Source: a virus. From it: a DNA stretch of 64,000 nt. This document shows positions 27,190 to 59,702 of the stretch, piece after piece (position 1 is the first letter of the stretch; each line of letters opens with the position of its first letter). The stretch lies in the IMG/VR virus record IMGVR_UViG_3300002835_000068, positions 39,273 to 103,272 of that record. The stretch is one strand, 5' to 3'. The notes beneath the pieces were generated by a model. The model was not told the origin of the DNA. It worked only from the letters and a program-made list of their open reading frames with translations, and did not search any database. The position numbers and the translations under genes are program-made.

Positions 27190-28951
27190 GTTTTTAGAAG
27201 CACTACAAGATGATCACTTTCAAGAGATTCCAGTAGACGCAAGAACATTTGTAGAGGGAGAAGCATACCTTGGCCAACCTCCACTGTCAGATATTCAGTA
27301 CGACATTGTAGAAGCCATGAGCCAGATCTATCGTAAAGAAGATCTTATAAATTTGCTGGGGGAAGAAAAAGGAAACCAATATTATAATAAGTATACTAAG
27401 AACGAAATCATTCTGCAACTTGGCAAGGGATCTGGAAAAGACTTTACATCAACAGTAGCATGCTCATACATCGTATATAAACTTCTATGTTTAAAAGACC
27501 CAGCAAAATATTTTGGTAAGCCCTCTGGAGATGCTATTGACCTTATCAATGTGGCTATTAACGCTCAACAAGCAAAAAATGTTTTCTTTAAAGGTTTTAA
27601 GACCAAGATTGAAAAGTCTCCTTGGTTTGTTGGAAAGTACAATGCTAAGGCAGACTCAGTTGAGTTTGATAAGTCTATTACAGTTTATTCTGGTCACTCA
27701 GAAAGAGAGTCTCATGAGGGTTTAAACCTTCTTCTTGCTGTTCTTGATGAAATCTCTGGCTTTGCTTCTGAGATTGGAACAGGAAATGATCAGGGTAAGA
27801 CTGCTGACAATATCTACAGAGCATTCCGTGCTTCAGTAGATTCTCGCTTTCCTGACTTAGGCAAGGTTGTTTTGCTTTCATTCCCAAGATATCCAGGAGA
27901 CTTTATTTCAGAAAGATATGATGCTGTAATTGCTGAAAAAGAGTCAATTGAAAAGACTCACAGGTTTATTATCAATCCAATCTTGCCAGAAGATGATCCA
28001 GATAACTATTTTGATATTTCCTGGGATGAAGATCAAATTCTTTCATATAAATATCCAGGAGTCTTCGCATTAAAGAAACCAACATGGGAAGTAAACCCTA
28101 CAAGAAAGATTGATGATTTTAAGATTGCATTTTTAACAGACATAGGAGATGCAATGCAAAGATTTGCATGCGTTCCAACTTTTGCATCAGATGCCTTTTT
28201 TAAGCAGTCTGAAAAAGTAAGAGCCTGTATGACATTGAGAAACCCTGTAGATAACTTTAGAAGGTTTGATGAATCTTTTAAACCAGATCCAGACAAGGTT
28301 TATTATGTTCATGCTGACCTTGCACAAAAGCATGACAAGTGTGCTGTTGCTATTGCTCACGTAGATAAATGGGTAAATATTCAGGTAATTAATAACTATG
28401 AACAAGTAGCACCAATTGTTGTGGTAGATGCAGTAGCCTGGTGGGAGCCAAAGGTTGAAGGACCTGTTAACCTATCTGAAGTAAAGATGTGGATTCAAAA
28501 CCTTCGTAGGCTTGGATTTAATATTGGAATGGTTTCCTTTGACCGCTGGCAGTCATTCGATATTCAAAATGAGTTAAAGCAGGTAGGAATGAGAACTGAT
28601 ACTGTTTCTGTTGCCAAAAAACATTATGAAGATATGGCTATGCTTGTCTATGAGGAAAGACTGGCTATGCCAGCAATCGAACTATTGTTCGATGAACTAA
28701 CCCAGTTAAAGATTATGAAAAATAACAGAGTTGACCACCCACGAAAGAAGTCAAAAGACCTGGCAGATGCCGTGTGTGGAGCAATATTTGGGGCAATATC
28801 ACATACCCCAAAAGACCAAAATATGGTGGTCGAAGTTCATACCATTAGTGATCGACCTAAGCAGGTTGACACAGGTAGAGACAATGTGATAGAATATAAA
28901 CCTATGCCAGATGATGTAAAAGATTATCTGGATAGATTCAATCTACTATAA
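27179..28951 (+). CDS. Terminase large subunit
   Basis: A 590-residue packaging motor. Walker A is QLGKGSGKDFT (~82), Walker B LLLAVLDEISGF (~184). The C-terminal RNase H-like nuclease shows VHADLAQKHDKCAVAI (~376), SFDRWQS and SKDLADAVCGA, whose aspartates bind metal. It cuts concatemers and pumps DNA into proheads. ATG 27179 is preferred to an upstream TTG at 27170. Portal and capsid genes are not in the window. Confidence 0.93.
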   Translation: MFNEFLEALQDDHFQEIPVDARTFVEGEAYLGQPPLSDIQYDIVEAMSQIYRKEDLINLLGEEKGNQYYNKYTKNEIILQLGKGSGKDFTSTVACSYIVYKLLCLKDPAKYFGKPSGDAIDLINVAINAQQAKNVFFKGFKTKIEKSPWFVGKYNAKADSVEFDKSITVYSGHSERESHEGLNLLLAVLDEISGFASEIGTGNDQGKTADNIYRAFRASVDSRFPDLGKVVLLSFPRYPGDFISERYDAVIAEKESIEKTHRFIINPILPEDDPDNYFDISWDEDQILSYKYPGVFALKKPTWEVNPTRKIDDFKIAFLTDIGDAMQRFACVPTFASDAFFKQSEKVRACMTLRNPVDNFRRFDESFKPDPDKVYYVHADLAQKHDKCAVAIAHVDKWVNIQVINNYEQVAPIVVVDAVAWWEPKVEGPVNLSEVKMWIQNLRRLGFNIGMVSFDRWQSFDIQNELKQVGMRTDTVSVAKKHYEDMAMLVYEERLAMPAIELLFDELTQLKIMKNNRVDHPRKKSKDLADAVCGAIFGAISHTPKDQNMVVEVHTISDRPKQVDTGRDNVIEYKPMPDDVKDYLDRFNLL

Positions 28952-28968
28952 ATAAGGAGAAATACCGA

Positions 28969-30108
28969 ATGAATTCATTCAAGAAAATCGCACTAGCCAT
29001 GGTTGCAGCCATGACTTTGGGCACAATCGTAGCAACACCTGCAAGTGCTGCTGTAATGACAGTTGCTGTAGATCTTGCTGGAACGGCTAACACAACCGCT
29101 TCTTCAATTGCTACACCTGCTGCATTGCCAGTCCCTGCAGACAACACAGTTGACGCTGCTGACGCACTTAAGTTCGTCGCAACAGTTGACACAGGAACAG
29201 TCGTTTCTGTAGTGACAACAAACGCAACAATCGTGTCTGCATTACACACATCTGCTGCACCAGTAGCAGCGACATCAGGATCATCGTCATTGACAATCGC
29301 AACTGGTACAGGAACAACTGCAACATTCTATGTCTATACAAAGACAACAGCAATTGGCACAGTTGTAATCAACAACGGTGGAACAACCCTTACATACTAT
29401 GTACAGGGCACTGCTGGTAAGATCAACAACCTAACAGTAACCGCTCCAGTATCAGGTGCTGCAGGTACAAAGCAAGACATTCTAGTTACAGCAACAGACG
29501 TATTTGGAAACAAGGTTTCTGGTAAGTCCCTTACTGCAACAGTATTTGCTGCAACAGCAACACTTGATTCAGCAACAGCATCAACAGGTGCTACACTTTC
29601 AGACTTTGGAGTTGCAACATTTAAGGCAACACTTCCAACAGTTGGAACACGAGCACTAGTTATGTTTGCTCCAACAACATCAACAGATGCAGTTGCTGCA
29701 GCAGTTGTAGGCTTGACTGCTCCAACACTTGCTCCATTTGCAGAGATCACAGTCCGTGATCTTGTAGCAGAACTTGCTGCTCAGATTGCTGCTAAGACTG
29801 CAGCAGAAAAGGCTCTTGCAGATGCTCTTGCCAAGGCTGCAGCCGATTCTGCTACTGCTAAGTCAGTTGCAGATTCAAATGCGCTCACTGCAGCAGCAGA
29901 GATTGCTAAGTTAAAGGCAGAGGCTGTTTCAGCCAAGATTGCTTCAGACAAGGCTCTTGTTGACGCTATCGCTGCTAAGGATGCTCAGATTGCTAAGTTG
30001 ACTTCAGATAACACTGCTGCACTTGCATCACTAAAGAAGGCATTCAACACACTTGCAAACAAGTGGAACAAGAAGAATCCAAAGGCAAAGGTTACTTTAG
30101 TTAAGTAA
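28969..30108 (+). CDS. Secreted surface-type protein, Ala/Thr-rich
   Basis: A 379-residue protein behind an AAGGAG ribosome site. The first ~28 residues (MNSFKKIALAMVAAMTLGTI ... PASA) form a signal peptide. Residues ~160-245 include TDVFGNKVSGKSLTATVFAA, typical of bacterial Ig-like (Big) domains. A long Ala-rich coiled coil and a basic tail end the protein. Codon use is richer in G/C (GCT, ACA/ACC, AAG) than in neighbours, suggesting host-derived origin or high expression. It looks like a host cell-surface protein rather than a virion component; a strong terminator follows. Confidence 0.75.
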   Translation: MNSFKKIALAMVAAMTLGTIVATPASAAVMTVAVDLAGTANTTASSIATPAALPVPADNTVDAADALKFVATVDTGTVVSVVTTNATIVSALHTSAAPVAATSGSSSLTIATGTGTTATFYVYTKTTAIGTVVINNGGTTLTYYVQGTAGKINNLTVTAPVSGAAGTKQDILVTATDVFGNKVSGKSLTATVFAATATLDSATASTGATLSDFGVATFKATLPTVGTRALVMFAPTTSTDAVAAAVVGLTAPTLAPFAEITVRDLVAELAAQIAAKTAAEKALADALAKAAADSATAKSVADSNALTAAAEIAKLKAEAVSAKIASDKALVDAIAAKDAQIAKLTSDNTAALASLKKAFNTLANKWNKKNPKAKVTLVK

Positions 30109-30121
30109 TTATTCCAACATT

Positions 30122-30154
30122 AAAGGGGTTGCCAATTACGGCAGCCCCTTTTTT
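30122..30154 (+). terminator. Rho-independent terminator
   Basis: A 12-bp stem (30122-30133 with 30140-30151, one G-T pair) around a 6-base loop, followed by T residues, directly after the stop at 30108. It isolates the surface-protein gene from the next transcription unit. Confidence 0.9.
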
Positions 30155-30165
30155 GTGCAATAAAA

Positions 30166-30174
30166 TGGTATAAT
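30166..30174 (+). promoter_or_regulatory. Extended -10 promoter (TGGTATAAT)
   Basis: TGG plus TATAAT at 30169-30174, 12 bases downstream of the terminator. It would drive the PA14-like protein and holin genes with a leader of about 30 bases containing an AGGGGG ribosome site. Confidence 0.65.
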
Positions 30175-30212
30175 CATCCTATCAGACATGTCGTCTGCAA
30201 GGGGGAAAGGTA

Positions 30213-32354
30213 ATTAAACGACTACTAAGAATAGTAACGGCCACAGTCTTAGCCTTTGGCTGGCTACTTATAGCCCCCCAGGAAGCCCACTCTGATGATC
30301 CACTCACAGTAGCAGCCCAAGAAATACAGGAACTTAACGATAGCGTAGATGACCTTGGCTATCAAGATGATTTTATAGATCTTATAGAGATAGCAGAAAA
30401 TAAGTTTGCCTCAGCCACAAATGCGAAGGAACTTAAAGATGATGCCTATGATGCCCACGAAGATGCAGTAGAAGCAGAAGCCACAGCCTTAGAAGCAAAA
30501 AATCTTGCCCAGTCAAATGTGGATGGTCAGACAGCCACAGTAGCCTTGGCCCTTGAACATAAAGACAACGCTCTTGAAGAAAGAAACGATGCACAGGATG
30601 CTCTCAGCATAGCCAACATAAATGTTCAAACCACACAGTCTAATATGCAGGCTGCTGGAGGAACAGGGTTAGCCTATACGGTTTATACTCTTGTCAGACA
30701 AGGAAATGTCGCTACCCCAGGATCTGTGCTTTGTTCTGGCACTTGGAACTCAAACTCTATGTATCTTCCAGTTTGTGGCAACAGGTATGAAAATTTTATA
30801 GTTAAATTTACTGGAACGATTACTGTCCCATCATGGTTTACAACAACATATTTTGCAGGATATACAGATGATGGATTTAGAATGTATGTAGACGGAGTTC
30901 TTGCAGTTGATAACTGGCAAGAGCAAGGCACTACTTGGAGTGATTATTCACCAGTATATGATGTTAGTGAAGACAAAACATTGGGTGTAGAAATTTGGTG
31001 GTATAACGGCGGAGGTCCTGGATCTTATCATCTTGGATGGGCAATTCCTGGAGGCTGGACTGGAGTAGGATGCGACTATGCTGGAGATCCACGAGTATGG
31101 GGACAAAACTTTAGTTGTAATCTTAATACATTTTCTTCTGGCTCAGGACCAACACAGGAACAGATCAATGCTTACAATGATGCTGTTGAAGCACAGGCTA
31201 TAGCACAAACAATCTATAATAATAAATTAGCAGTATATAATGACAAACTAAATGTTTACAATCAAGAAGTACAAGTCTTACAAAATCTCACATCAAACCT
31301 CACAACAGCAATACAAAACCTAACAATCGCACAACAAAACCTAACATCTGCTTTAGAATTAAAAAATAATAGAATCAACACATATAATCAATCTATAATT
31401 GATTTAAATGCTGCTATTGAAGATGCATGGACTTATTATTTTGAGCAGGCACAAAGAGAACTTAATGCTGCTATTGCTCAGGCAGCAGCCAATGCTGCAG
31501 CCAATCAGCCTACCCCAGAACCAACACCAGAACCTTCTCCAGAACCAACTGAAGAGCCAACAGATGAACCAAGCCCAGAGCCCTCACCAGAGCCTACAGA
31601 GGAACCAACTGAAGAACCTACACCAGAACCATCTCCAGAGCCTACAGTAGACCCTACAGATGAGCCTACACCTGAACCTACCCCAGAGGTTACACCAGAT
31701 CCAGAACCAACTGAGGAGCCAGTTGTAGAGCCTACTGAAGAACCTACCCCAGAACCTTCACCAGAACCTGGACCAGATCCAGAACCAGAAGATAATCCTT
31801 GGACTGAACCAGATGTAGAAATCAAAGATGAAGTATTAGAAGCCCTCATTCCTGAAAAGGGAACTGGTACATCAGAAGATTTATCTGGAGTTATTGCTAA
31901 CCTTACAAGCAAAGATAATAAGTTAGTTACTCTTTCCCCTGAACAAATTACAGCAGTAAGTCAAACACTCAAAGCATTGACGCAAGAAGCAAAAGTAGAA
32001 GTTGCAGAAGACCTTGGCATTAAGCCGTCAGAAGTTGCACAGATTGCTGAGCAGATGAAGTCTAACCCAGAACTTGCCTCAGCATTTGTTGAGTTCGCAG
32101 AAAGAGCAGGGGATGCAGGAGAAACCCCAATGCCATTTACATTAGCAGATGCAGTAACAGAAGTACAGACAGAAGCATTTTTAGCAGACCCACTTGGTGC
32201 AGTATTTGAAGTGGATGTTACAGAACTCCTATCCAATTTCTCTGAGTTGGGTATGGATATGACAGATGATCAGAGAGAAAAAGCCCAAGAAGTCATTATC
32301 CCAGTAATCATTGTTTCACAGATTGCAAATGTAATGATTGGGATGAGGAGGTAA
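30213..32354 (+). CDS. Secreted PA14-like protein with Pro/Glu repeat; probable ATT start
   Basis: The frame is open back to an excellent signal peptide (KRLLRIVTATVLAFGWLLIA, then PQEAHS), but no ATG/GTG/TTG precedes it. The codon right after the AGGGGGAAAGGTA ribosome site is ATT at 30213, giving 713 residues. The GTG at 30519 would discard the signal peptide. Coiled-coil segments flank a PA14-like beta domain (YTDDGFRMYVDGVLAVDNW, residues ~200-290), often glycan-binding. Then come ~100 residues of Pro-Glu/Thr repeats (31505-31795) and a helical C-terminus. Likely an exported, wall-spanning adhesin-type protein. Upstream: own promoter. Confidence 0.7.
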   Translation: MKRLLRIVTATVLAFGWLLIAPQEAHSDDPLTVAAQEIQELNDSVDDLGYQDDFIDLIEIAENKFASATNAKELKDDAYDAHEDAVEAEATALEAKNLAQSNVDGQTATVALALEHKDNALEERNDAQDALSIANINVQTTQSNMQAAGGTGLAYTVYTLVRQGNVATPGSVLCSGTWNSNSMYLPVCGNRYENFIVKFTGTITVPSWFTTTYFAGYTDDGFRMYVDGVLAVDNWQEQGTTWSDYSPVYDVSEDKTLGVEIWWYNGGGPGSYHLGWAIPGGWTGVGCDYAGDPRVWGQNFSCNLNTFSSGSGPTQEQINAYNDAVEAQAIAQTIYNNKLAVYNDKLNVYNQEVQVLQNLTSNLTTAIQNLTIAQQNLTSALELKNNRINTYNQSIIDLNAAIEDAWTYYFEQAQRELNAAIAQAAANAAANQPTPEPTPEPSPEPTEEPTDEPSPEPSPEPTEEPTEEPTPEPSPEPTVDPTDEPTPEPTPEVTPDPEPTEEPVVEPTEEPTPEPSPEPGPDPEPEDNPWTEPDVEIKDEVLEALIPEKGTGTSEDLSGVIANLTSKDNKLVTLSPEQITAVSQTLKALTQEAKVEVAEDLGIKPSEVAQIAEQMKSNPELASAFVEFAERAGDAGETPMPFTLADAVTEVQTEAFLADPLGAVFEVDVTELLSNFSELGMDMTDDQREKAQEVIIPVIIVSQIANVMIGMRR
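31505..31795 (+). repeat. Pro/Glu/Thr-coding tandem repeat
   Basis: Imperfect repeats of CCAGAACCTTCTCC-type units coding PTPEPSPEPTEEPT segments inside the PA14-like protein. Such stretches form extended wall-spanning linkers. The opposite strand shows an unbroken Gly/Ser frame that is only a shadow of the repeat. Confidence 0.85.
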
Positions 32355-32356
32355 AA

Positions 32357-32563
32357 ATGAAAATAATCAAAAAGGTTGTGAAGGGATTCTTCACATGGCT
32401 TAAAGATGCAGGGGTGGAAGTGATTGCACAGGCCTTTACTCTCCTTGGCTTCTTCATCGCATGGCTAACTTTGACGGGATCAGCAAGAGACATTGTTGGT
32501 ATTGCAGTACTTGCAACTACAGTAATCTGGCTTATTACAATCCCACTAAGAAAGGAGGACTAA
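32357..32563 (+). CDS. Small membrane protein, holin candidate
   Basis: A 68-residue protein three bases after the preceding gene. A basic amphipathic N-terminus is followed by two hydrophobic segments (VIAQAFTLLGFFIAWLTL and IVGIAVLATTVIWLITI) and a charged end (RKED). Position before a holin-like gene suggests a lysis partner (holin or antiholin). Confidence 0.6.
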   Translation: MKIIKKVVKGFFTWLKDAGVEVIAQAFTLLGFFIAWLTLTGSARDIVGIAVLATTVIWLITIPLRKED

Positions 32564-32565
32564 AT

Positions 32566-32850
32566 ATGGCAACTAAAAAGGTAGTAGAGCCTCCTAAGAA
32601 GGAGCACCCACAAAAGGCAATTACTAATATATTGATGAGAATCGTAGCAGTCTTTGCAGCATCTGGTCTATCAGTACTTGGTGCTGGAGCAGTTGTAGGA
32701 ATTGACACAGTTCAGGCAGTATTCTTAGCAGGACTATTAGGCGTAGCAACAGTCATTGAAAGACTGGCAAGGGCTTTTTTGGACGATGGAAAACTCACAT
32801 TGGCAGAGATCAATGATGCGTTTAAAACGGTAGACAAAAAGGCTAATTAG
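32566..32850 (+). CDS. Holin, r1t-like
   Basis: A 94-residue protein with AAAGGAGG upstream of ATG 32566; the longer frame from 32461 overlaps the previous gene. Two membrane segments (IVAVFAASGLSVLGAGAVV and AVFLAGLLGVATVIERLA) and a charged C-terminus resemble r1t-type holins of actinophages. Holins permeabilise the inner membrane to release the endolysin, here encoded at 42153. Confidence 0.65.
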   Translation: MATKKVVEPPKKEHPQKAITNILMRIVAVFAASGLSVLGAGAVVGIDTVQAVFLAGLLGVATVIERLARAFLDDGKLTLAEINDAFKTVDKKAN

Positions 32851-32866
32851 TCATTATTAACGTTAG

Positions 32867-32896
32867 TTGACAGCCCTCTCTGGGCAATGGTATACT
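32867..32896 (+). promoter_or_regulatory. Strong sigma-70-type promoter
   Basis: TTGACA (32867-32872), 18 bases, TATACT (32891-32896) with an upstream TGG. It drives the HslV-like peptidase gene with a ~25-base leader containing GGAGAGGG. Confidence 0.8.
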
Positions 32897-32922
32897 TAAG
32901 TATCACCTATCTGGAGAGGGCT
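32872..32922 (+). promoter_or_regulatory. Nested dyads overlapping promoter (operator candidate)
   Basis: A perfect 12-bp palindrome ATACTTAAGTAT (32892-32903) covers the -10 and start region. It is nested in a 9-bp inverted repeat, AGCCCTCTC (32872-32880) and GAGAGGGCT (32914-32922). Since the left arm lies upstream of the start site, this cannot be only an RNA hairpin and suggests a protein-binding operator. Confidence 0.5.
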
Positions 32923-32927
32923 TTGTC

Positions 32928-33452
32928 ATGACCTGTATTGCTGTAGTAAAACATGAAGATAAAATCTACATGGCTGGAGATCGTGGAGCATCAGACGATG
33001 GGACTATTCTAGCACTTGATGCACCAAAGGTTTGGAAGATAGGTCCTTATCTTATTGGCTATGCTGGATCAATGGACGGAGAAAGAATCCGTTTTAACTT
33101 TAAGCCAAGTGCTCCTAACATTAAAGATACAGATAAGTTTATGCAGACAAGGTTTATTAAAGAACTAAAGGAATTCTATAATGAGTTCTGGGTTGACACA
33201 TCCAAAGACGGAGACCTTGGTTTGATCATTGCAGTTCGTGGAGAAATCTATGAACACAGTTCTGGGGATATGTCTTTATCTAAGTACATACTTCCTTATC
33301 TTGCAATGGGCTCTGGAGCAGAGTATGCTTATGGGGTTTTGTATGCAACTGATAAACAAAAAAATGCAAGAAATAGGGTTGTTCAAGCAGTTAACGCTGC
33401 TATCAAGTTTAATCCTTCTTGCATGGGGCCAGTAGATGTAGTTAGTTTATGA
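32928..33452 (+). CDS. Proteasome/HslV-like Ntn-hydrolase
   Basis: A 174-residue protein, the same length as bacterial HslV. It begins Met-Thr-Cys-Ile-Ala, so Met removal would expose a catalytic N-terminal Thr; AGDRGAS and DAPKVWKIG supply the expected Asp and Lys, and YLAMGSGAEYAYGVL matches the conserved glycine-rich helix start of proteasome-fold peptidases. No HslU-like ATPase is encoded. Possible roles are degradation of host proteins, processing of phage proteins, or a peptidase partnered by a host ATPase. The last 4 bases overlap the next gene. Confidence 0.8.
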   Translation: MTCIAVVKHEDKIYMAGDRGASDDGTILALDAPKVWKIGPYLIGYAGSMDGERIRFNFKPSAPNIKDTDKFMQTRFIKELKEFYNEFWVDTSKDGDLGLIIAVRGEIYEHSSGDMSLSKYILPYLAMGSGAEYAYGVLYATDKQKNARNRVVQAVNAAIKFNPSCMGPVDVVSL

Positions 33453-34252
33453 GAGAGTTTCGCACTGACACAAATAATATTATCAATAAAACTTCTTGGA
33501 ATCTAGTTGGAGCGTATAAAGAAGTTTTTGGCAACCTTAATGACAAACTTTATCCATGCGTAATAAATGATAAAAAAGTTATTCTTGGTGGGTATAATAA
33601 CTGGGATTGGCCCACCCTGCAGTTCATGAATATTGATGGGTATAGGTCTGACAACTTTAAAAAAAATACAGAAAACGATATTGTTTTTTTAGGTTGTTCA
33701 CAAACTTTTGGAGTTGGTATTGCACAAAATTTTACTTGGCCAAAAGTTGTACTAGATTCTATTGCACCAAACAATAACCTAAATAATTTGTCTCTTGTTT
33801 CAGGAGCAATAGAAGAAATTATTTATAATTTTTTTAAATATTGTAATATATATGATAATCCAGGAACAGTGTTTTTTTTAATGCCAGACATACATCGTGG
33901 CTTTGAGCCAGTATTAGAGTTGGCTCAATTAAGAGCAATACAGTTTTATCAAATATTAGAAATTTACTGCAAGATAAACAATATTAATCTTATTTCATCT
34001 ACTTGGGATATTAGGAGACCTAATAATAATGATCAGAGTTTAAATGATTTTTTTGATGGAATGTTTGACACATTTTACAAAATAAATATACAGGATTATG
34101 CTAAAGATATTAATGATTTTATGGAAAAAAACAGCCATGAAGAGTATCTCTTGGTTGCTAGAGATAAAAAGCATATGGGTATTGCTATGCATCACGCTAC
34201 TGCAAAGTTTATGGTAGAAAAATATTTAAACTTGACATCCAAACAAGAATAG
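33449..34252 (+). CDS. SGNH/GDSL-like hydrolase, copy 1
   Basis: A 267-residue protein. FLGCSQTFGVGI (block I nucleophile Ser with nearby Gly) preceded by GYRSDNFKKN, an internal TWD segment and a C-terminal ARDKKHMGIAMHH (D-x-x-H type dyad) fit the SGNH hydrolase plan. Two more copies lie at 41236-42105 and 55181-56221. Such enzymes remove or transfer acyl groups, often on glycans. Confidence 0.6.
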   Translation: MREFRTDTNNIINKTSWNLVGAYKEVFGNLNDKLYPCVINDKKVILGGYNNWDWPTLQFMNIDGYRSDNFKKNTENDIVFLGCSQTFGVGIAQNFTWPKVVLDSIAPNNNLNNLSLVSGAIEEIIYNFFKYCNIYDNPGTVFFLMPDIHRGFEPVLELAQLRAIQFYQILEIYCKINNINLISSTWDIRRPNNNDQSLNDFFDGMFDTFYKINIQDYAKDINDFMEKNSHEEYLLVARDKKHMGIAMHHATAKFMVEKYLNLTSKQE

Positions 34253-34260
34253 GATACACT
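34232..34260 (+). promoter_or_regulatory. Promoter, leaderless geometry
   Basis: TTGACA (34232-34237), 17 bases, TACACT (34255-34260), overlapping the end of the upstream gene. ATG 34267 is 6 bases after the -10, so the mRNA should begin at or next to the start codon. Confidence 0.75.
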
Positions 34261-34266
34261 TTATAT

Positions 34267-34488
34267 ATGAGCGAAGAATTTGAAGAAATCTTAAAAGATA
34301 TTCAAAATACAGAGGCAGATTTTAATGAGTTTGAGATCTGGCTTGAAAACGGAATTGAACGGGGATGGATAACAGAACCGTTCTGTAATACTCATGAAGG
34401 CGATCCTTATATGAGTGAAGAAGAGCAACAAGAGTGGGAAGCAGGTGGCGACCCATGTCAACTAGTAATCAAGATAAAGGGTATATAA
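34267..34488 (+). CDS. Small acidic protein
   Basis: A 73-residue very acidic protein (MSEEFEEILKDIQNTEADFN) with two cysteines. No ribosome site precedes it, but a consensus promoter ends 6 bases upstream, consistent with leaderless translation. Acidic phage proteins of this size are often inhibitors or DNA mimics; that is only a possibility. Confidence 0.55.
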   Translation: MSEEFEEILKDIQNTEADFNEFEIWLENGIERGWITEPFCNTHEGDPYMSEEEQQEWEAGGDPCQLVIKIKGI

Positions 34489-34490
34489 AT

Positions 34491-35270
34491 ATGAAAAAGT
34501 TAATCGCACTAATCGCAGTACTGTTTTCAGTAGTAGTTCCAATTAATGCAAATGCAAACACAGTTGGTTCTGTTGTAATTATTGATAGCAATTTTAACGA
34601 GTCTTTTATTTCAGGAAGCCGTGAAGTAGTTTGCCTATACACATCCAACTGCTCTGTTCCTCAGTCTGGTAAAACAACAGAGTCAATGCATGGAACTATC
34701 ATGGCAGAGGTTGCAAGAACTGCAAATCCAACCGCAAACCTTATTCTAATTAAGGCTGCAACTACTCCAACTGGAATCGTAAATGGAGATGATTTTAACA
34801 CTGCTTTGTCTTGGGTTATTGCAAACCTAAAGACAAAGAATATCAAGTCTGTATCATTTGCTCGTGGATCAGGTGCAGCGTCTAATACGTCTACTGGGTG
34901 CATGCCAACACATCACACTGACAGGAATGTTCTAAAGGCAAAGACGATTGTGAATGTAGATTTACTGTCTTCGTCTGGAGTAAAGGTGTATGCCTCTACT
35001 GGAAACACAAACAAGGTTGGAAGTCTTGAGTATCCAGCATGCTTGCCAAATGTAACAGCCGTAACAACGCTGTCAAGACAAAAGACAGATGGGGTCAATG
35101 AGTACACAGATATCCTATTGTCTGCTGGATCATTAAAGGTTGTATCTTTAACTGGTGTCAATACAAAGCAGGTTTTTATGACAACATCTGCAACTGCTAC
35201 TTTAGCAGCAGCGATGTACGACAAGATCTCATTTGTTCCTAACGGAAGAACAAGAGTATTGCTTCCTTAA
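34491..35270 (+). CDS. Secreted subtilisin-like (S8) protein
   Basis: A 259-residue protein with a signal peptide (MKKLIALIAVLFSVVVPINA). The catalytic order of subtilases is visible: Asp32 in VVIIDSNF, His67 in SMHGTIMA, the oxyanion Asn in YASTGN and Ser233 in MTTSATATLA. The Ser motif lacks the usual Gly (GTSMA in the family) and the protein lacks a prodomain, so activity is uncertain. It may process cell-surface proteins during infection or release. Confidence 0.65.
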   Translation: MKKLIALIAVLFSVVVPINANANTVGSVVIIDSNFNESFISGSREVVCLYTSNCSVPQSGKTTESMHGTIMAEVARTANPTANLILIKAATTPTGIVNGDDFNTALSWVIANLKTKNIKSVSFARGSGAASNTSTGCMPTHHTDRNVLKAKTIVNVDLLSSSGVKVYASTGNTNKVGSLEYPACLPNVTAVTTLSRQKTDGVNEYTDILLSAGSLKVVSLTGVNTKQVFMTTSATATLAAAMYDKISFVPNGRTRVLLP

Positions 35271-35277
35271 TTAGGAT

Positions 35278-35350
35278 TGGGCTGTAACTCAGATGGTAGA
35301 GTGCCGAACTGTTAATTCGGATGTCGCAGGATCGATACCTGCCAGCCCAG
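35278..35350 (+). tRNA. tRNA-Asn (GUU)
   Basis: Acceptor stem TGGGCTG with CAGCCCA, anticodon arm CCGAA-CTGTTAA-TTCGG giving GUU, and a T arm with ATCGATAC. No encoded CCA. It is the only tRNA gene on the plus strand in this window. Confidence 0.93.
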
Positions 35351-35366
35351 CAAAGTAAGTTATATG

Positions 35367-35375
35367 GTGTATAAT
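35367..35375 (+). promoter_or_regulatory. -10 element (TATAAT)
   Basis: TATAAT at 35370-35375, 17 bases after the tRNA-Asn gene and 30 bases before the GTG start at 35406, leaving a leader with a GGAG ribosome site. Confidence 0.5.
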
Positions 35376-35405
35376 TGTTTTAGTAATTGAGAAGAATGGA
35401 GCAGC

Positions 35406-36089
35406 GTGGAATACCCATCAATTTTAAACAATATCACTGATGACTTTGATATATGGTACAAGACTAAAGATCCCGTTTTTTCTGATCTAAGTTTAAAGTC
35501 AAGGCTTCCAGATAGGTGGGTTAGGTTTGATACTGTAGCCAAGGGCAAATATAAAGACAGTGTAATTAAACCAATCAACACATATGTTCAGGCACTCTAC
35601 CCAGCACCAACTTTAGTAAGTATAGAAAATGGTGTTGTTAGGCTTAGACAAAGAAACCATGCGGAGTTCTTTTTGCTTGAGACATCTACAAGGCTAAGAA
35701 ATATTGACAGACCCTGGATGAGGCAATACTATAACACAGACTTTAAAATGGCAAAAGACAAAGAATGTTTTGATGATGTCTTTAAGTTTTACGCACCATG
35801 GTATATAGATTTAGACGTTGAGGTCTTTTATGAAACTCCACAAGAGGACTCTCCTTTTGTCATAAGCCCAGACTCATCAGTTCATAAAAAGATAGATAAA
35901 GAATTAATATATTTAGAGCCAGACTTTATACCCTTTAAATTTAAGAGAGTTGGCCCTCATATGGTTGACCATAGGTTTGGCAAAATAAAAAGGTATTCAG
36001 CGATGTTTGATATAGTATTTAAAGTAGATGGTATAATTGAAGAGAAAGTTAGGAACTTTTATGAACAAGATCAAGTTTTACCCATTTAG
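35406..36089 (+). CDS. Hypothetical protein, divergent member of a local trio
   Basis: A 227-residue protein with a GTG start. The segment FYAPWYIDLDVEVFYETPQE aligns by eye with NWFYETPPGYSVL of the gene at 36780 and the equivalent of 36061, so the three appear to be diverged tandem copies. No catalytic motif is seen. A promoter-like element for the next gene lies within its 3' end. Confidence 0.55.
   Translation: MEYPSILNNITDDFDIWYKTKDPVFSDLSLKSRLPDRWVRFDTVAKGKYKDSVIKPINTYVQALYPAPTLVSIENGVVRLRQRNHAEFFLLETSTRLRNIDRPWMRQYYNTDFKMAKDKECFDDVFKFYAPWYIDLDVEVFYETPQEDSPFVISPDSSVHKKIDKELIYLEPDFIPFKFKRVGPHMVDHRFGKIKRYSAMFDIVFKVDGIIEEKVRNFYEQDQVLPI
36029..36037 (+). promoter_or_regulatory. Extended -10 (TGGTATAAT) inside a gene
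   Basis: TGG plus TATAAT at 36032-36037, 23 bases before ATG 36061. It coincides with coding sequence for DGIIEE, so it could be chance, but the string is the recurrent promoter of this genome. Confidence 0.4.
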
Positions 36090-36783
36090 CCAGTCAACAA
36101 CAGAGTTTACCCCAAAGCCATATCCTGCTTTAAAGGCTATTCCAGACTGGTATAAAAGTCAGCCATCAGTAATGAATGAGAAAGAATCTCTTGCACAGGG
36201 GTTTTCTACTTCAACAATTAAGAGATGCATGCCAATATTTGACTACATAACTGCGGGATACATACTATCTATCCCATGTGATATATATATTGATGCTACC
36301 AATCCAGAAAAACTAGAATGGTCAGTTCCACAACCTATGAAGACATTTGCGATAAGCATGATAGCCTCACATGCTGAAGAGCAGTATTCTCATTTTCCTA
36401 TAGATAAAGATAAATACCATAAGCAACTGTTTAGAATTTTACCTTTCTGGTCAGTAAAAACAGAGCCAGGATATAGTTGTTTGTTTCTTCATCCAACACA
36501 TAAAGATCCAGTACCTTTCCTAACAATAGAAGCAATAATAGACACTGATAATTTTATTACAGATGGACATGTTTCTATGTTAATTGAAAAAGATTTTAAG
36601 GGTGTTATAAAGCAAGGAACACCTTTTATTCAGGTACTTCCCTTTCAAAGAGAAGACTGGGAGATGGAACTGGTTGACCCAGAAGTTGCACAAAAAGAAA
36701 TAACTGCACAAAGATTATCTCTTCGTAGTACTTTTTCTTTTGGATATAAGAACAAAATGAGATCAAAAAAGGATTTTAAGTGA
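36061..36783 (+). CDS. Hypothetical protein, local trio copy 2
   Basis: A 240-residue protein; ATG 36061 is favoured over an upstream TTG. Conserved features shared with the next gene: YPALKAIPDWYKS, RCMPIFDYITAGY, FLTIEAIIDT and GTPFIQVLPFQREDWE. This pattern is that of an uncharacterised phage protein family (possibly DUF6065; not verified). Function unknown; surroundings suggest particle or surface modification. Confidence 0.6.
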   Translation: MNKIKFYPFSQSTTEFTPKPYPALKAIPDWYKSQPSVMNEKESLAQGFSTSTIKRCMPIFDYITAGYILSIPCDIYIDATNPEKLEWSVPQPMKTFAISMIASHAEEQYSHFPIDKDKYHKQLFRILPFWSVKTEPGYSCLFLHPTHKDPVPFLTIEAIIDTDNFITDGHVSMLIEKDFKGVIKQGTPFIQVLPFQREDWEMELVDPEVAQKEITAQRLSLRSTFSFGYKNKMRSKKDFK

Positions 36784-37553
36784 GTGATGTCCCACTTCCT
36801 ATAAAATTTACCCCAACATTCTTAGGTCACTCTGGAATGCTTACTATGCCAGTACCAGCGGTGTCTAAGGTTCCAGAATGGTACAGAAGTCTTGCACGTT
36901 TTGATAGATCAAATGACGATATAACTCTTGGGGTAAATAATAATGTAGGTACTGATGGAGCAATGGTAGCAACAAAAATGTGTATGCCATTTTTTGATGC
37001 ACTAACTGCTGGATATCAGTATGTTCTAGAAGATGATGTATATGTTGACTTAGATAAAGATGGAAAGCCAATCATTTCATGGAAAGGCCAGGTAATGATG
37101 GTAGATAAAAGACCAACGATAGAATTACCAGTACCAGACAATTGTCATCCAATACACTATGGCTGGAGAATGAATTGGTTCTACGAAACTCCTCCAGGAT
37201 ATTCAGTATTGATTACACACCCAATGAATAGGTATGACCTTCCATTTTACACAATGTCTGGTATCGTTGAGTCAGATATATGGGGGCTTCCAGTTTTTAC
37301 AGCCTTCTTTTTAAAAAGAAACTTTATAGGAGTAATACCAAAAGGAACTCCAATATTCCAGATTGTTCCAATTAAAAGAGATTCCTGGGAGTCTGAGTGC
37401 ATCGAGACAGACGAGGCACTTGATAGACATGAACTAGCAGCAGAGAATAGAAGATCACGACTTTATGGATACTACAAACAAACAGCCTGGAGAAAAAAGA
37501 TGTTTGGTGTAAAAAATTCTAAAATAAAAGAAGTTTCACACGACGATGAATGA
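36780..37553 (+). CDS. Hypothetical protein, local trio copy 3
   Basis: A 257-residue protein with a GTG start that overlaps the preceding stop by 4 bases. It repeats the family pattern: VPAVSKVPEWYRSL, KMCMPFFDALTAGY, HYGWRMNWFYETPPGYSVL and GTPIFQIVPIKRDSWE. About 240-260 residues appears to be the family length. Confidence 0.6.
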   Translation: MSDVPLPIKFTPTFLGHSGMLTMPVPAVSKVPEWYRSLARFDRSNDDITLGVNNNVGTDGAMVATKMCMPFFDALTAGYQYVLEDDVYVDLDKDGKPIISWKGQVMMVDKRPTIELPVPDNCHPIHYGWRMNWFYETPPGYSVLITHPMNRYDLPFYTMSGIVESDIWGLPVFTAFFLKRNFIGVIPKGTPIFQIVPIKRDSWESECIETDEALDRHELAAENRRSRLYGYYKQTAWRKKMFGVKNSKIKEVSHDDE

Positions 37554-38406
37554 TATATTAGTTTTGATTTATTCCTACAAAGGTAAAAATCTTAAAGATG
37601 TTGTTGACAATGTTTTTAAAAATTCTAGCGGTAAAAGAAAAATAAAGGTTATAGTATCAGACCAACACCCACTAAACAGAAGAGACACCTTCTCTAGCAT
37701 AGACTGCAGTTACTTTCATATATTTTGGGATTTTATAACAAGTCCATGCCATCATAAAAATTCTTTTATAAGGACAAACCTATCTAAGTATTCTTTAATT
37801 TTGGGAGACTCAGTTATGGTTCCAAAAAATTGGGATGATGATCTTGTTAGTCTTGTAGAAGAAAACAATTGCGTTATTTCTGGATCTGGCAAAACTGTTT
37901 TAGGGATAGAGAGCCTTTTCTTTTTAAAGAAAGAAAACATACATAGTGATAGTTTTTCAGTTACACAATACATAGACAGAGATTTTATCTTTGGGCTAAC
38001 ATCTTTTTTATCAGAAGTTAAATATCCAACCTATCTAAAATATAACGGAGAAGAAGAATCCCTGTCTGTTAAGATTTTTACAAAGGGTGTTGATATATAT
38101 TCTGCCCCATCAAACTACTATAAAAAAGTTTCAGAAAATCTTATAGGTGAAATATATGTCCCATTTTCTTTAAATCATAACTATAATGAGGCAATAAGCC
38201 TTTTGCAAAATGGGTCTAATTCCTTTGAAAATATCAATGGACTAGAAAGAAGTGTAGAAGATTTTAATATTTTTCACGGAAATATATTTCAGCATCTAAA
38301 TAATTTACCATTTCACACTAACGATGTTGAGTATGATCCACAAGCCCTTTCTTTTAATAAGGTAGATGCAAGAAGATATCTAGGCAACACAAAAGCAATC
38401 CATTAA
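37546..38406 (+). CDS. Glycosyltransferase-like protein
   Basis: A 286-residue protein. DILVLIYSYKGKNLKDVVDN with KVIVSDQHP and later KYSLILGDSVMVPKNWDDDL resemble the Rossmann-like start and metal-binding segment of GT2/GT60-type (GlcNAc) glycosyltransferases, although the DxD is poorly defined (GDS). It overlaps the preceding gene by 8 bases. Probably acts in the cytoplasm on a phage or host glycan. Confidence 0.5.
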   Translation: MNDILVLIYSYKGKNLKDVVDNVFKNSSGKRKIKVIVSDQHPLNRRDTFSSIDCSYFHIFWDFITSPCHHKNSFIRTNLSKYSLILGDSVMVPKNWDDDLVSLVEENNCVISGSGKTVLGIESLFFLKKENIHSDSFSVTQYIDRDFIFGLTSFLSEVKYPTYLKYNGEEESLSVKIFTKGVDIYSAPSNYYKKVSENLIGEIYVPFSLNHNYNEAISLLQNGSNSFENINGLERSVEDFNIFHGNIFQHLNNLPFHTNDVEYDPQALSFNKVDARRYLGNTKAIH

Positions 38407-38415
38407 TGGTATAAT
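38407..38415 (+). promoter_or_regulatory. Extended -10 promoter (TGGTATAAT)
   Basis: TGG plus TATAAT at 38410-38415 directly after the stop at 38406, with AAAGGAG as ribosome site before ATG 38433. Confidence 0.6.
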
Positions 38416-38432
38416 TATATAAAGGAGAAAAT

Positions 38433-39125
38433 ATGACAGACTCAGATATGCCTGCAGAGCGCAGGGCAGACCTAAAAGGTGGACATAGAATCCACGTAAT
38501 TAAGAATTTCATAACACCAGAAGACGCACAAACCCTTATTGATGAGCAAAGAAATCCATCATCAACAAACCCTTATCCAGAATACTATAAGAAGAGATTC
38601 GGAGGAACCTCTTTTCCATATAATGATCGTGTAATGGATATCTTAAAGAAGTATGGAGAAAAAGCAAATGAGGTTCATAAAGAACAGAATGCTTTTTATA
38701 ATGATATCTATGTCTTTAAGGCTTTTGGCTCTTGGTGGACTGAGGGAACAAAGGGTGGCCTACATATAGACGCACAAGACCCTGAACCATTTATTGAGTG
38801 GAGTACAATTATCTACTTAAACGGTAACTTAAATCCACAAGAAGAAGAAGATGGGCAAACAATAAGTCCAGACCTAGAGTTTACTGGTGGAAGAATTTAT
38901 TTCCCAAACCAAAACTATGTATATGAGCCAAGAAGATATTCTGCAGTATTTTTCCCTAGCGCTGGAACAGAGTACATTCATGGAATAACTAAGGTTCTAT
39001 CTGGTAACAGACATACAGCATTATATATGCATACAAGTCTTCCTACCCACGCCGATCCAGATTTTATTAAGCCAGGGGTTGTTCCAAAATGGAAGGCTAT
39101 GGGATACCCATTAAATGATGAATGA
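38433..39125 (+). CDS. Prolyl-4-hydroxylase-like 2OG-Fe(II) oxygenase
   Basis: A 230-residue protein. HVIKNFITPEDAQTLIDEQ is the typical entry helix of P4H-type oxygenases; GGLHIDAQDPEPF has the H-x-D pair, GGRIYFPNQN the glycine-rich strand, and FFPSAGTEYIHGITKVLSG the distal His followed by a conserved strand. It starts a probable operon with the next oxygenase and the carbamoyltransferase. Confidence 0.75.
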   Translation: MTDSDMPAERRADLKGGHRIHVIKNFITPEDAQTLIDEQRNPSSTNPYPEYYKKRFGGTSFPYNDRVMDILKKYGEKANEVHKEQNAFYNDIYVFKAFGSWWTEGTKGGLHIDAQDPEPFIEWSTIIYLNGNLNPQEEEDGQTISPDLEFTGGRIYFPNQNYVYEPRRYSAVFFPSAGTEYIHGITKVLSGNRHTALYMHTSLPTHADPDFIKPGVVPKWKAMGYPLNDE

Positions 39126-39783
39126 TTTTGAAATTTTAGATCTTGGTTTAGTTTATTATAAAAATGTAGTAAATGATCCACAGGGTCTGATTAAAAAGAT
39201 CGAAGAACTTGATTCAAGATATCAAGAGGAAAAGCCAGCACCCTTTATGACATCAGTAAAGCCATGGATTCCATGGACGTATGGAGAAGGTTCAAATAAG
39301 GTTACTTTTAATATGCAAAAGTTTATACCACAAGTTAAAGATATTTCAAAAACAGATATCTATTTAAACCAACAAACTTTTATATCAAATGAACTGTTCG
39401 GGGCACTTGATAGAACACTTAGTCACTACTCAACTGAACTTTATCCTTTTGCTGAAAAAAACATAAAGTCTAGAGAAAAGACCATGCATCTGCTTAAATA
39501 TGATAAAACTGGACACCTACCAGCACATCAGGATCAAGGAATTAGTACAAGAGTTTTATCTGTTCTTTTATATCTAAATGATGACTACGAGGGTGGAGAA
39601 ATTGAGTTTAGACATTCTGGGTTAAAGTTTAAGCCAGAGGCAGGAAGCGTACTGTTTTTTCCATCAAACTTCTTATATGTTCATGAGGTGTACCCAGTCA
39701 CAAAGGGTCCAAGGTATGCACTACCAAATTGGTACCATAATGTCCCACTTGAGTTTAAGAGAGACTCAACAGGTGATGAATGA
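39115..39783 (+). CDS. 2OG-Fe(II) oxygenase
   Basis: A 222-residue protein overlapping the previous gene by 11 bases; ATG 39115 or 39118 are both possible. LPAHQDQGISTRVLSVLLYL, EGGEIEFRHSGLKFKPEAGS, LFFPSNFLYVHEVYPVTKGP and RYALPNWYH show H-x-D, the jelly-roll strands, the distal His and the 2OG-binding Arg in canonical order. Its core is close to the minus-strand gene at 52445. Substrate unknown. Confidence 0.82.
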   Translation: MMNDFEILDLGLVYYKNVVNDPQGLIKKIEELDSRYQEEKPAPFMTSVKPWIPWTYGEGSNKVTFNMQKFIPQVKDISKTDIYLNQQTFISNELFGALDRTLSHYSTELYPFAEKNIKSREKTMHLLKYDKTGHLPAHQDQGISTRVLSVLLYLNDDYEGGEIEFRHSGLKFKPEAGSVLFFPSNFLYVHEVYPVTKGPRYALPNWYHNVPLEFKRDSTGDE

Positions 39784-41243
39784 TAATTCTTGGTATTAAC
39801 GAAACCACACATGATGCATCAGTATCTTTAATTAAAGATGGAGAGATACTTTTTGCTGGTCATGCAGAAAGATACAGCAAGGAAAAAAATGATTGGTTTA
39901 CAAATAGAGAACTTATTAAAGATGCTCTTCAATACGGTTATCCAGATCAAATTGCATACTATGAAAAGCCATTACTAAAAAAAACAAGGTTGTTATTAAA
40001 AGGCGGATTCGGTGGAGGTAGACCATGGTTTGAAACAACAGAACTTGGAAAACTGCCAAGAAAAAACTTTAAGCATCACTACTCTCATGCAGCAGCAGGA
40101 TACTATACAAGTAGTTTTGATGATGCTGTAATTGTAGTGTTAGATGCTATTGGTGAGTGGGAAACTTGCAGTGTCTGGGTTGGTGAAGGAGAAAAGATAA
40201 AACATGTTTACTCTGATAGTTACCCTTTTAGTTTTGGCTTGTTTTATTCAGCATTTACACAACTAATAGGTCTAATGCCAAACCAAGAGGAATATATCAT
40301 GATGGGTATGGCTGCCTATGGGGACTGGAAGAAGCATTATCTAAAAGTTAATGCATACTTTGAATCTACAATCTATCAAAAGTATAACTTTCACAAGGGC
40401 ATTCAAGACTGGGGTGTTATTGAAAATGAACAAGACAGATTTGATATAGCAGCAGCCGTTCAGTATGTATATGAAAGAAGGCTATTGGAGTTTATGTCGC
40501 AAGCAAAGTCTAATACAGGTAAAAAGAACTTAGTCTTTATGGGTGGTTGTGCTCTTAACTCATCAGCAAATACAGCCCTGTGGACACTTTTCGATATGAT
40601 TTGGATCATGCCCAACCCTGGAGATGCTGGTAGTTCTTTAGGTGCAGCAGCAGCCTTATACGGAAAACACCTTGACTGGAAGACTCCATATCTTGGCTAT
40701 GATCTTGGAGGAGAGTATCCTGTTCAGCAAATTGTGGACGGTATATTAAAAGATGGAATCGTTGCAGTAGCATCAGGCAAAGCAGAGTATGGCCCAAGAG
40801 CATTAGGAAATAGATCTATCCTTGCCGATCCAAGAGATCCACTCATCAAAGACAAAGTAAACCTAATTAAACAAAGAGAACTTTTTAGGCCCTTTGCCCC
40901 AGTTGTTTTGGCTGAACATGCACATAAATGGTTTGATATGGATTTTGAAAGCCCATACATGCAATATACAGTAAAATGTTTGCAACCAGAAAAGATACCT
41001 TCTGTAGTGCACAAAGATGGAACCTCCAGGGTACAGACGGTCACTAAAGATCAGCACCCAGGATTATATAGAGCAATAAACAAGTTCTACCTTCAAACTG
41101 GTGTTCCAGTTCTTTTAAATACAAGTCTTAATATTAAAGGACAGCCATTGCTTAATGATGAAAATGATATTATTAAGTGGGAAAAAGAATATAATTTTAA
41201 TATATTGGGAGACAAGGGTGTCAGAACATTATTTGATGAGTAG
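39780..41243 (+). CDS. NodU/CmcH-type carbamoyltransferase
   Basis: A 487-residue enzyme. ILGINETTHDASVSLIKDGE and FKHHYSHAAAGYYTSSFDDA belong to the N-terminal ATP/carbamate (Kae1-like) domain with metal-binding His residues; the C-terminal domain has YGPRALGNRSILADPRD and ELFRPFAPVVLAEHA. The family transfers a carbamoyl group from carbamoyl phosphate to a hydroxyl of a sugar or small molecule. Shorter than many relatives but both domains are present. Overlaps neighbours on both sides. Confidence 0.88.
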   Translation: MIILGINETTHDASVSLIKDGEILFAGHAERYSKEKNDWFTNRELIKDALQYGYPDQIAYYEKPLLKKTRLLLKGGFGGGRPWFETTELGKLPRKNFKHHYSHAAAGYYTSSFDDAVIVVLDAIGEWETCSVWVGEGEKIKHVYSDSYPFSFGLFYSAFTQLIGLMPNQEEYIMMGMAAYGDWKKHYLKVNAYFESTIYQKYNFHKGIQDWGVIENEQDRFDIAAAVQYVYERRLLEFMSQAKSNTGKKNLVFMGGCALNSSANTALWTLFDMIWIMPNPGDAGSSLGAAAALYGKHLDWKTPYLGYDLGGEYPVQQIVDGILKDGIVAVASGKAEYGPRALGNRSILADPRDPLIKDKVNLIKQRELFRPFAPVVLAEHAHKWFDMDFESPYMQYTVKCLQPEKIPSVVHKDGTSRVQTVTKDQHPGLYRAINKFYLQTGVPVLLNTSLNIKGQPLLNDENDIIKWEKEYNFNILGDKGVRTLFDE

Positions 41244-43317: not shown

Positions 43318-43566
43318 ATGATTGATACACCTGTAGAAGTTAAAGAGTGGGTACTTAAGGCAACTGACAGATGTGATTCATGTGCAGCAGAAGCATTGGT
43401 TCAGATTACTGGATTAAACGGAGACCTTCTTTTTTGTGGTCACCACTACAACAAAATCATGAATAATCCAGAAGGATACAAAAAAATGATGTCTTTTATG
43501 ATTACTTTGATTGATGAACGAGATAAACTTATTGAAAACAAGGCAAAGGAAGCACCACACGCATGA
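43318..43566 (+). CDS. Small zinc-binding protein of actinobacterial type
   Basis: An 82-residue protein (85 if read from ATG 43309). TDRCDSCAAEALVQITGL followed by LLFCGHHYNKI is a C-x2-C ... C-x-H-H site found in a short family of Actinobacteria and their phages (DUF7455-like, from memory). Supports an actinobacterial host. Overlaps the next gene by 4 bases. Confidence 0.7.
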   Translation: MIDTPVEVKEWVLKATDRCDSCAAEALVQITGLNGDLLFCGHHYNKIMNNPEGYKKMMSFMITLIDERDKLIENKAKEAPHA

Positions 43567-44324
43567 TTATTCAGATTATTGGCCTACCTGGTTCTGGTAA
43601 AACAGAACTGGCTAAGGCCCTAAAAGAACGCATTAACGCTATTCATCTCAATGCAGATGAAGTTCGTGCAACAGTTAATTCAGACCTTGGGTTTACGCCA
43701 GAGGATCGTATTGAGCAAGCACGACGTATGGGAGAGATGGCTCGTCTTATCTCTAAGCAAGGTGTTGCTCCAGTAATTGTAGACTTTGTATGTCCTACAG
43801 ATTTAACTCGTGCAGCATTTGGTAAGCCAGATATCTTGGTGTTTATGGATACAATTGCTGAGGGCAGGTTTGAAGATACAAACAAGATGTTTGAACGACC
43901 AGACAATGCAGATGTATCATTTATTAGTCACAACCTAGATGCTGAAGCAAAGGCATCACACATCATTGATAAGTTTAGTCTTCATGATTGGTCTGCCCCT
44001 ACAACACTTATGCTGGGTAGGTACCAGCCATGGCACGAAGGTCACCACGCCCTTTATAAGGAGGCTGGCAAGAGAACTGACCAAGTACTTCTTGGAGTCC
44101 GCAATACCTACAACACAAGCGAAAAAGATCCTCTTAAGTTTGATCAGGTAAAAGAATATATTGCCAAGGACGACTTTATGGATGGTGCATTAGTATTAAG
44201 ACTACCTAACATTACCAATATTGTATATGGTCGTGATGTAGGATATAAGATTGAGCAAGTAGATTTGGGGGCAGACATTCATGCTATTTCGGCTACGCAA
44301 AAGCGTAAAGAGATGGGTATCTAA
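43563..44324 (+). CDS. APS-kinase-like / nucleotidyltransferase fusion
   Basis: A 253-residue two-domain protein. Residues 1-~135: P-loop GLPGSGKTELAKAL and LNADEVRATVNSDLGFTPED, then RIEQARRMGEMARLI, which closely follow adenylylsulfate kinase (CysC). Residues ~140-253: MLGRYQPWHEGHHAL (H-x-G-H) and ISATQKRKEMG (IS-x-T-x2-R) of the cytidylyl/NMN-adenylyltransferase superfamily. It may make an activated sulfate or another nucleotide-linked donor; two sulfotransferase-like genes lie at 53204 and 53790. The C-terminal domain is far shorter than ATP sulfurylase. Confidence 0.8.
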   Translation: MIIQIIGLPGSGKTELAKALKERINAIHLNADEVRATVNSDLGFTPEDRIEQARRMGEMARLISKQGVAPVIVDFVCPTDLTRAAFGKPDILVFMDTIAEGRFEDTNKMFERPDNADVSFISHNLDAEAKASHIIDKFSLHDWSAPTTLMLGRYQPWHEGHHALYKEAGKRTDQVLLGVRNTYNTSEKDPLKFDQVKEYIAKDDFMDGALVLRLPNITNIVYGRDVGYKIEQVDLGADIHAISATQKRKEMGI

Positions 44325-59673: not shown

Positions 59674-59702
59674 AGTATACCGAATTCTGCACGGTATGTC
59701 AA
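59674..59702 (-). promoter_or_regulatory. Sigma-70-type promoter
   Basis: Minus-strand TTGACA (59702-59697), 17 bases, TATACT (59679-59674) with GG before it, then a leader with AAAGGA before the secreted-protein ATG. The -35 region TTGACATACCGTG is repeated exactly at 62746-62734. Confidence 0.8.

Follow-up and report, generated by a model that had tools for sequence, protein, structure and literature searches.

One gene of the DNA examined here raises the question of whether a phage can make an active proteasome-like peptidase that has no ATPase beside it and, if so, what kind of enzyme it is and when it would be produced. ATPase-less proteasome-like enzymes are a stated open question in the available text of Fuchs, Alva and Lupas (2021; PMC8665760). 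The gene has a single place in a 103,272-base virus record, and "the window" below means the whole 64,000-nt stretch analyzed. The encoded protein is called P0001.

32928..33452, + strand: proteasome-like (Ntn-fold) threonine peptidase, P0001, 174 aa, with the triad Thr2/Asp18/Lys34, Gly47 and G128-S129-G130

We concluded that P0001 is a divergent phage proteasome-like peptidase with a well-supported fold, carried by actinophages.

Fold and active site

The reading frame is intact, from the ATG at 32928 to a TGA stop that ends at 33452, and encodes a protein of the HslV-like length that the original prediction had noted. Pfam family PF00227 (Proteasome) matched P0001 at 24.5 bits (cut-off 22.4; E 2.5e-5), and PHROG 1040, annotated as "peptidase HslV family", matched residues 1-173 with an E value of 4.8e-23. 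None of the defence-system models matches P0001.

An AlphaFold2 model built from a 108-sequence alignment reached a mean pLDDT of 93.1 and a pTM of 0.89, with four helices (residues 51-57, 68-86, 131-140, and 147-161). The top Foldseek match of the model was BPH from Thiobacillus (TM 0.81). BPH gave a Z score of 20.5 over 165 aligned residues (2.4 A) and HslV one of 20.0 over 163 residues (2.7 A), and by the predicted model the two are tied as the best solved matches. Proteasome beta was also among the matches, and the Z score was at least 8 for all of 1000 chains. In the alignment with mature BPH, residue 2 of the model falls on chain residue 1. Thr2, Asp18, and Lys34 sit at the proteasome triad, and we take them to be the equivalents of proteasome Thr1, Asp17, and Lys33 after Met removal; the oxyanion Gly47 is present (G47). 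The N-terminal Met-Thr, the Asp and Lys partners, and the GSG helix start had been read from the sequence beforehand, and in the model GSG 128-130 indeed opens the helix at 131-140.

Thr2, Asp18, and Lys34 are invariant in the 108-sequence alignment, as are Met1, Gly44, Gly128, and Gly130; the invariance of Thr2 in this set is partly a matter of selection, because only sequences with Thr directly after the start codon were picked. Of the 426 homologous ORFs present before that pick, 421 carried Thr there; in the remaining five, the match began at profile position 7 or 40. The original prediction was staked on an Ntn fold and a conserved Thr2, and both were found: the model is predicted to have the alpha-beta-beta-alpha Ntn fold at pLDDT 93, and Thr is kept in nearly all homologous ORFs. 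Pairwise counting over 57 distinct coding sequences gave a dN/dS of 0.043 within the P0001 clade, indicating strong purifying selection. Taken together, the fold, the triad, the conservation, and the dN/dS point to an active enzyme, an activity that we infer from fold and residues, and they support the earlier view that an actinophage carries a stand-alone proteasome-like peptidase with a complete active site.

Relation to HslV and to known phage homologs

P0001 resembles HslV (ClpQ) in length, fold (Z 20.0), triad, and the GxAG and GSG motifs. It differs in falling far under the cut-offs of the curated HslV models (TIGR03692, 21.2 bits vs. 157.75; NF003964, 19.8 bits vs. 137), and neither the phage searches nor the sampled host class yielded HslU. 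HslV in the strict sense was rejected on this score (21 bits vs. a cut-off of 158).

The group I proteasome homologs are HslV, BPH, AAH, CPH, and PPH, with AAH and PPH found in phages (Fuchs et al., 2021; PMC8665760, available text). The gene is therefore less new than the original prediction implied, since phage proteasome homologs were described in that work. PPH is defined there as a protein of about 140 residues in which the second helix H2 is missing; P0001, with 174 aa and four model helices, was rejected as a PPH. The same available text gives no function or context for the homologs and no Actinobacteria-specific phage with AAH. Phage proteasome-like homologs are thus already known (Fuchs et al., 2021; PHROG 1040), and what is added here is a divergent actinophage clade.

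In a tblastn search with P0001, 154 phage records contained relatives, none of which reached 60% identity; most are T5-like phages of Salmonella and E. coli, and the rest include Vibrio, Aeromonas, and other phages. Similar relatives occur in Azospirillum, Rhizobiaceae, Frankia, Streptomyces, Paenibacillus, and many phages. This large set fits the published AAH range, and we call its members AAH-like, a provisional label taken from host range. The AAH/PHROG 1040 homologs (T5-like, Vibrio, and Moorella phages; Azospirillum, Frankia, and Streptomyces) share with P0001 the length class, the triad, and the MTCI start, and they are likewise phage-borne with no known partner ATPase. However, identity between AAH-like sequences and P0001 is only 20-32%. 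After the oxyanion strand, S-F-R-M-G-Q is present in nearly all of the former (of 102 sequences outside the P0001 clade, 100 have F49 and R50 and 97 have Q52), whereas P0001 has S-M-D-G-E (M49/D50/E52). This signature is our own observation on AAH-like sequences and not a published criterion. P0001 also keeps GxAG and GSG, where AAH-like sequences mostly have T-S and GCG.

In a careful tree of 57 rows, with 39 AAH-like sequences picked from 120 cluster representatives and the BPH row omitted because of its very long branch, the P0001 clade was split off by a branch at 100/100. In the best tree it is sister to the AAH-like rows (94/86) and not within them; the AAH-like clade itself is at 78/86, and HslV and PrcB stand apart at 99/93. 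By AU tests, joining P0001 with the clade of Planktophila phages E7 and F5 (see below) is neither shown nor rejected (p 0.47), and joining it with HslV and PrcB is not rejected either (p 0.37). The P0001 clade is, by these sequence comparisons, a deep lineage for which the AU tests leave several tree positions standing.

BPH (beta-proteobacterial proteasome homolog; PDB 5ovs, 5ovt, and 5ovu) is cellular, not phage-borne, and is 19-23% identical to P0001. Its hallmark is a long, highly acidic pore loop; in the P0001 model, residues 87-96, which follow the second helix, form a short stretch of lower confidence. Homologs in Vibrio and Pseudoalteromonas phages have long C-terminal extensions, at L084 6001-6867, L088 6001-6984, and L094 5001-6167 (total lengths 288, 327, and 388 aa, respectively). 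The phiTY18 protein as a query had no match in viral contigs.

Distribution and host

Exact 8-residue patterns detected 548 relatives of P0001 in IMG/VR, the best 80 of them at 92-100% identity. A second listing comprised the best 80 of 487 relatives, partly on the same contigs. Statements on conservation within the clade rest on these listings: 161 loci were examined, 155 of them with upstream sequence, giving 59 distinct upstream sequences (L601, which has no start, and five loci that were too short were left out). Copies of the clade in IMG/VR number in the hundreds.

An actinobacterial host is suggested mainly by a gene farther downstream in the window:

46315-46599, + strand: WhiB-like transcription factor (PF02467, E 5.7e-11)

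WhiB is taken as a mark of actinophages (PMC6802176 and PMC10202952, available texts). It was encoded in the window and in 13 of 14 records with the P0001 clade, which were hand-chosen from the best 80 of the 548 loci; in the control, only Corynebacterium was positive among 14 genomes. Gene content thus points to actinobacterial hosts for the clade. Homologs were present in 36 of 394 Actinomycetes genomes, all at 24-30% identity to P0001, and those of nine genomes reached via the loci were likewise at 23-30%. These are therefore AAH-like, and no cellular copy of the P0001 clade was seen; such a copy was rejected for all 36 matches. On plasmids, no close homologs were detected, only three distant matches.

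Records OX376640.1, described as LanE43-AprE7, and OX376641.1 both match P0001 by tblastn; by name or by size they correspond to the cultured Planktophila phages E7 and F5, of 39.1 and 38.9 kb (PMC10202952, available text).

L508 7500-8036: proteasome-like gene of Planktophila phage E7, 178 aa, next after the portal gene

The E7/F5 homolog is actinophage-borne like P0001, belongs to PHROG 1040, and is also without SFRMGQ, but it forms a separate clade (100/97) and in E7 adjoins the portal gene. The E7 homolog has 144 relatives in IMG/VR. The available main text of PMC10202952 names no HslV, proteasome or protease, but does mention genes for host protein degradation. With the E7/F5 homologs and the P0001 clade, actinophages, cultured ones included, therefore carry proteasome-like genes. 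The P0001 clade is frequent in phages from metagenomes, its sequence is highly constrained, and its host phylum is indicated; the second divergent member in E7 and F5 makes knock-out and substrate tests feasible in a real phage-host pair.

The promoter and a hairpin over the ribosome-binding site

The region directly upstream of the peptidase gene contains the following features:

32867..32896, + strand: sigma-A-type promoter TTGACA-18-TATACT with a TG extended -10, a consensus match; putative transcription start ~32903
32868..32884, + strand: 5' arm of a predicted 17-bp hairpin, upstream of the putative start point
32910..32928, + strand: 3' arm of the hairpin, which holds the Shine-Dalgarno (SD) sequence and extends to the A of the start codon
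32913..32920, + strand: SD sequence GGAGAGGG, 7 nt before the ATG, conserved in the upstream alignment

The promoter scores 11/12 against the consensus, and among the 59 distinct upstream sequences TTGACA is kept in 57, as is the TGG before the -10. Exact TTGACA-N16-19-TATACT occurs three times in the window vs. 0.10 expected. The original prediction called this the best promoter in the window; it is real by consensus, but its rank is shared with an 11/12 site inside a gene at 28866 and with two other exact pairs. The latter lie at 13716-13744 (+) and 59674-59702 (-), the second preceding a gene at 58868-59644, and no obvious SD-masking repeat was seen at either.

The 5' arm lies upstream of the putative start and would therefore be present only in read-through RNA. 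RNA spanning both arms folded at -29.9 kcal/mol (z -3.96, with 0 of 200 shuffles as good), whereas RNA starting near ~32903 had no such structure (z +1.5). Pairing at -18 kcal/mol or better was found in 53 of the 59 distinct upstream sequences. Across 48 distinct upstream sequences 90.1% of cells were paired, only slightly above the 88.7% of shuffles; shifting the partner by 1-3 columns lowered pairing to 38-59%. Six pairs were changed on both sides, against a shuffle value of 2.4 (at least 6 in 4 of 500), further pair types were not unusual (71 of 500 shuffles as high), and this covariation comes from closely related sequences with few events. The two main SD types gave -25.1 and -24.5 with their own partners, -21.8 and -15.8 across classes, and -12.0 when shuffled. 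The hairpin is missing in the remaining six sequences (L010, L017, L029, L049, L055, and L081) and is therefore not essential for every member. In L049, the sequence upstream of the -10 (upstream of 1108) has been replaced, so that TTGACA and the 5' arm are gone but the 3' arm remains, as would result from recombination at the promoter.

Two small ORFs precede the promoter:

32357..32563, + strand: small membrane-like ORF, 68 aa, a conserved neighbour (tblastn match in 69 of 80 loci) with no family match
32566..32850, + strand: holin-like ORF, 94 aa, with a weak match to PHROG 443 (holin) and a stronger one to PHROG 26427 ("nuclease"); match in 69 of 80 loci

These counts refer to the best 80 of the 548 loci, and many of the 80 stop short of the upstream genes. 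Sixteen bases separate the end of the holin-like gene from the promoter, and a simple scan found no terminator-like site on the + strand from 27731 to 41096; read-through is plausible for these reasons, with the holin-like ORF a possible source of the RNA. Because the SD forms the 3' arm, translation is expected from mRNA of the gene's own promoter but not from read-through mRNA. Known control of this kind comes from phage T4 genes e, soc, and 49: the gene e promoter is embedded in the 5' arm of a hairpin covering the ribosome-binding site, so that translation occurs from short transcripts and not from long ones (PMC3014915, available text). By structure prediction and pair counts P0001 would share the masked SD and the 5' arm missing from internal-promoter RNA. 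A difference is timing: the P0001 promoter is of the host sigma-A type, and P0001 is therefore expected to be early or constitutive, not late.

The inverted repeat could instead be a DNA operator or a weak terminator, which we regard as possible though on the unlikely side. Symmetric half-sites of an operator would covary too, and the stem followed by TTTGTC can be read as a terminator remnant. On the other hand, the arms are about 25 nt apart and flank the -10, the 3' arm coincides with the SD, the tail has no T run, and the terminator scan did not list the site. The SD arm sequence has one exact occurrence in the window, the nearest other having one mismatch and lying inside a gene, and no repeated hairpin was seen elsewhere in the window. 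The "operator-like dyads" of the original prediction are real as dyads, but one long RNA hairpin over the ribosome-binding site fits them better; that the gene is probably regulated is supported. An expression switch by the SD-masking hairpin is thus plausible from the predicted structures, and the promoter-in-hairpin layout offers a cheap and concrete test of protease timing.

Proposed function and alternatives

In the mechanism that we propose, Met1 would be removed by the host methionine aminopeptidase, exposing Thr1 as the nucleophile. Subunits would assemble into one or two rings that, unaided by a dedicated unfoldase, cleave peptides, unfolded proteins or a specific host protein. Host RNA polymerase would transcribe the gene early from its own promoter, and read-through RNA from the upstream lysis-side genes would hide the SD and yield no peptidase. 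P0001 would then be made early or independently of the late operon, a mirror image of the T4 lysozyme gene e. Host takeover or protein turnover is the most likely use. On balance we lean, narrowly, towards this whole explanation, including ring, early expression, and switch, for a stand-alone phage threonine peptidase that belongs with the compact proteasome-like enzymes of bacteria (HslV/BPH/AAH kind) and forms its own lineage. A bolder version is tentative and rather unlikely: an ancient, phage-only actinophage lineage would degrade host proteins early without an ATPase, and the promoter hairpin would silence read-through mRNA, confining the protease to one phase and sparing virion proteins.

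We consider it unlikely that P0001 instead acts on one specific substrate as a processing enzyme or protein ligase, perhaps without forming a closed ring. The wider family does include a monomeric ligase, connectase (PMC8665760, available text), and the P0001 clade differs at many positions that are >80% conserved elsewhere, suggesting a changed interface or substrate. However, the S3/S4 two-helix insertion of the connectase kind is absent from the P0001 model, the compact shape of which matches the ring-formers BPH and HslV.

A partner ATPase was sought in the phage and in host genomes. Neither PF07724 (AAA_2) nor PF00004 (AAA) had a match in the 103-kb record, which is possibly incomplete; each was positive in 14 of 14 control genomes. 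PF07724 also had no match in the 14 records with close copies, which may be incomplete as well. The reported lack of an HslU-type ATPase was thus confirmed for the record, and a dedicated phage ATPase was rejected on the searches with these two models. Among 197 Actinomycetes genomes, none was over the HslU cut-off (TIGR00390) and 163 were over that for Mpa/ARC (TIGR03689). Host HslU is therefore unlikely to be available, which disfavors borrowing of HslU. The original suggestion of a borrowed host AAA+ ATPase (HslU-like, Mpa/ARC or ClpX), with P0001 as the proteolytic part of the resulting hybrid machine, seems quite improbable to us. A proteasome ATPase is often at hand, as the Mpa/ARC count shows, but Mpa docks on PrcA alpha rings, which P0001 would not provide. 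In addition, the available text of Fuchs et al. (2021; PMC8665760) reports no AAA+ partner co-occurring with the new homologs. Borrowing of Mpa/ARC is conceivable, and nothing points to it.

A role as a virion-assembly or virion-borne peptidase, e.g., in head maturation, is very improbable: the E7 homolog does directly follow the portal gene, but the phage of the window encodes a separate head maturation protease (PHROG 9427, E 1e-113) next to portal and capsid genes, tens of kb from P0001, and the T5-like and Vibrio homologs sit elsewhere. P0001 as the head maturation protease itself was rejected, given the separate enzyme.

Gene neighbourhood

We return to the stand-alone peptidase and its surroundings. 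The T5-like and Vibrio homologs adjoin genes for ribonucleotide reductase, thymidylate synthase or PhoH, and the E7 homolog adjoins portal. Neighbourhoods that differ by phage make a single conserved role in timing or assembly less likely, and because of this variation the peptidase gene behaves as an accessory gene moving between modules. Within the P0001 clade, the next gene in most relatives is the following one, and genes farther downstream vary:

34267..34488, + strand: small acidic protein, 73 aa; matched in 79 of 80 loci, with its start usually 540 nt downstream of that of the peptidase

The acidic gene (34232-34488, +) seems leaderless, with TTGACA-17-TACACT ending 6 nt before the ATG; its relatives have TATACTT a few nt before the ATG. 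In the window, a gene at 33449-34252 (+) overlaps the peptidase stop (ATGA) and encodes a 267-aa protein that looks SGNH-hydrolase-like by eye, with no family match. It was matched in just 14 of 80 loci and is absent from this place in most relatives. At 34491-35270 (+) lies a secreted-looking 259-aa protein, by eye a degenerate subtilisin-type protease (HGT, TTSATA), with weak matches only (QhpE, E 0.006; sphericase, E 0.04). Just upstream of the holin-like genes, at a conserved position, 30519-32354 (+) encodes a 611-aa PA14-domain protein with long PT/EP-rich repeats. Farther downstream, a carbamoyltransferase (39780-41243), an APS-kinase-like protein (43563-44324), and a HAD phosphatase-nucleotidyltransferase fusion (48505-49869), all on the + strand, suggest a small-molecule or glycan modification module.
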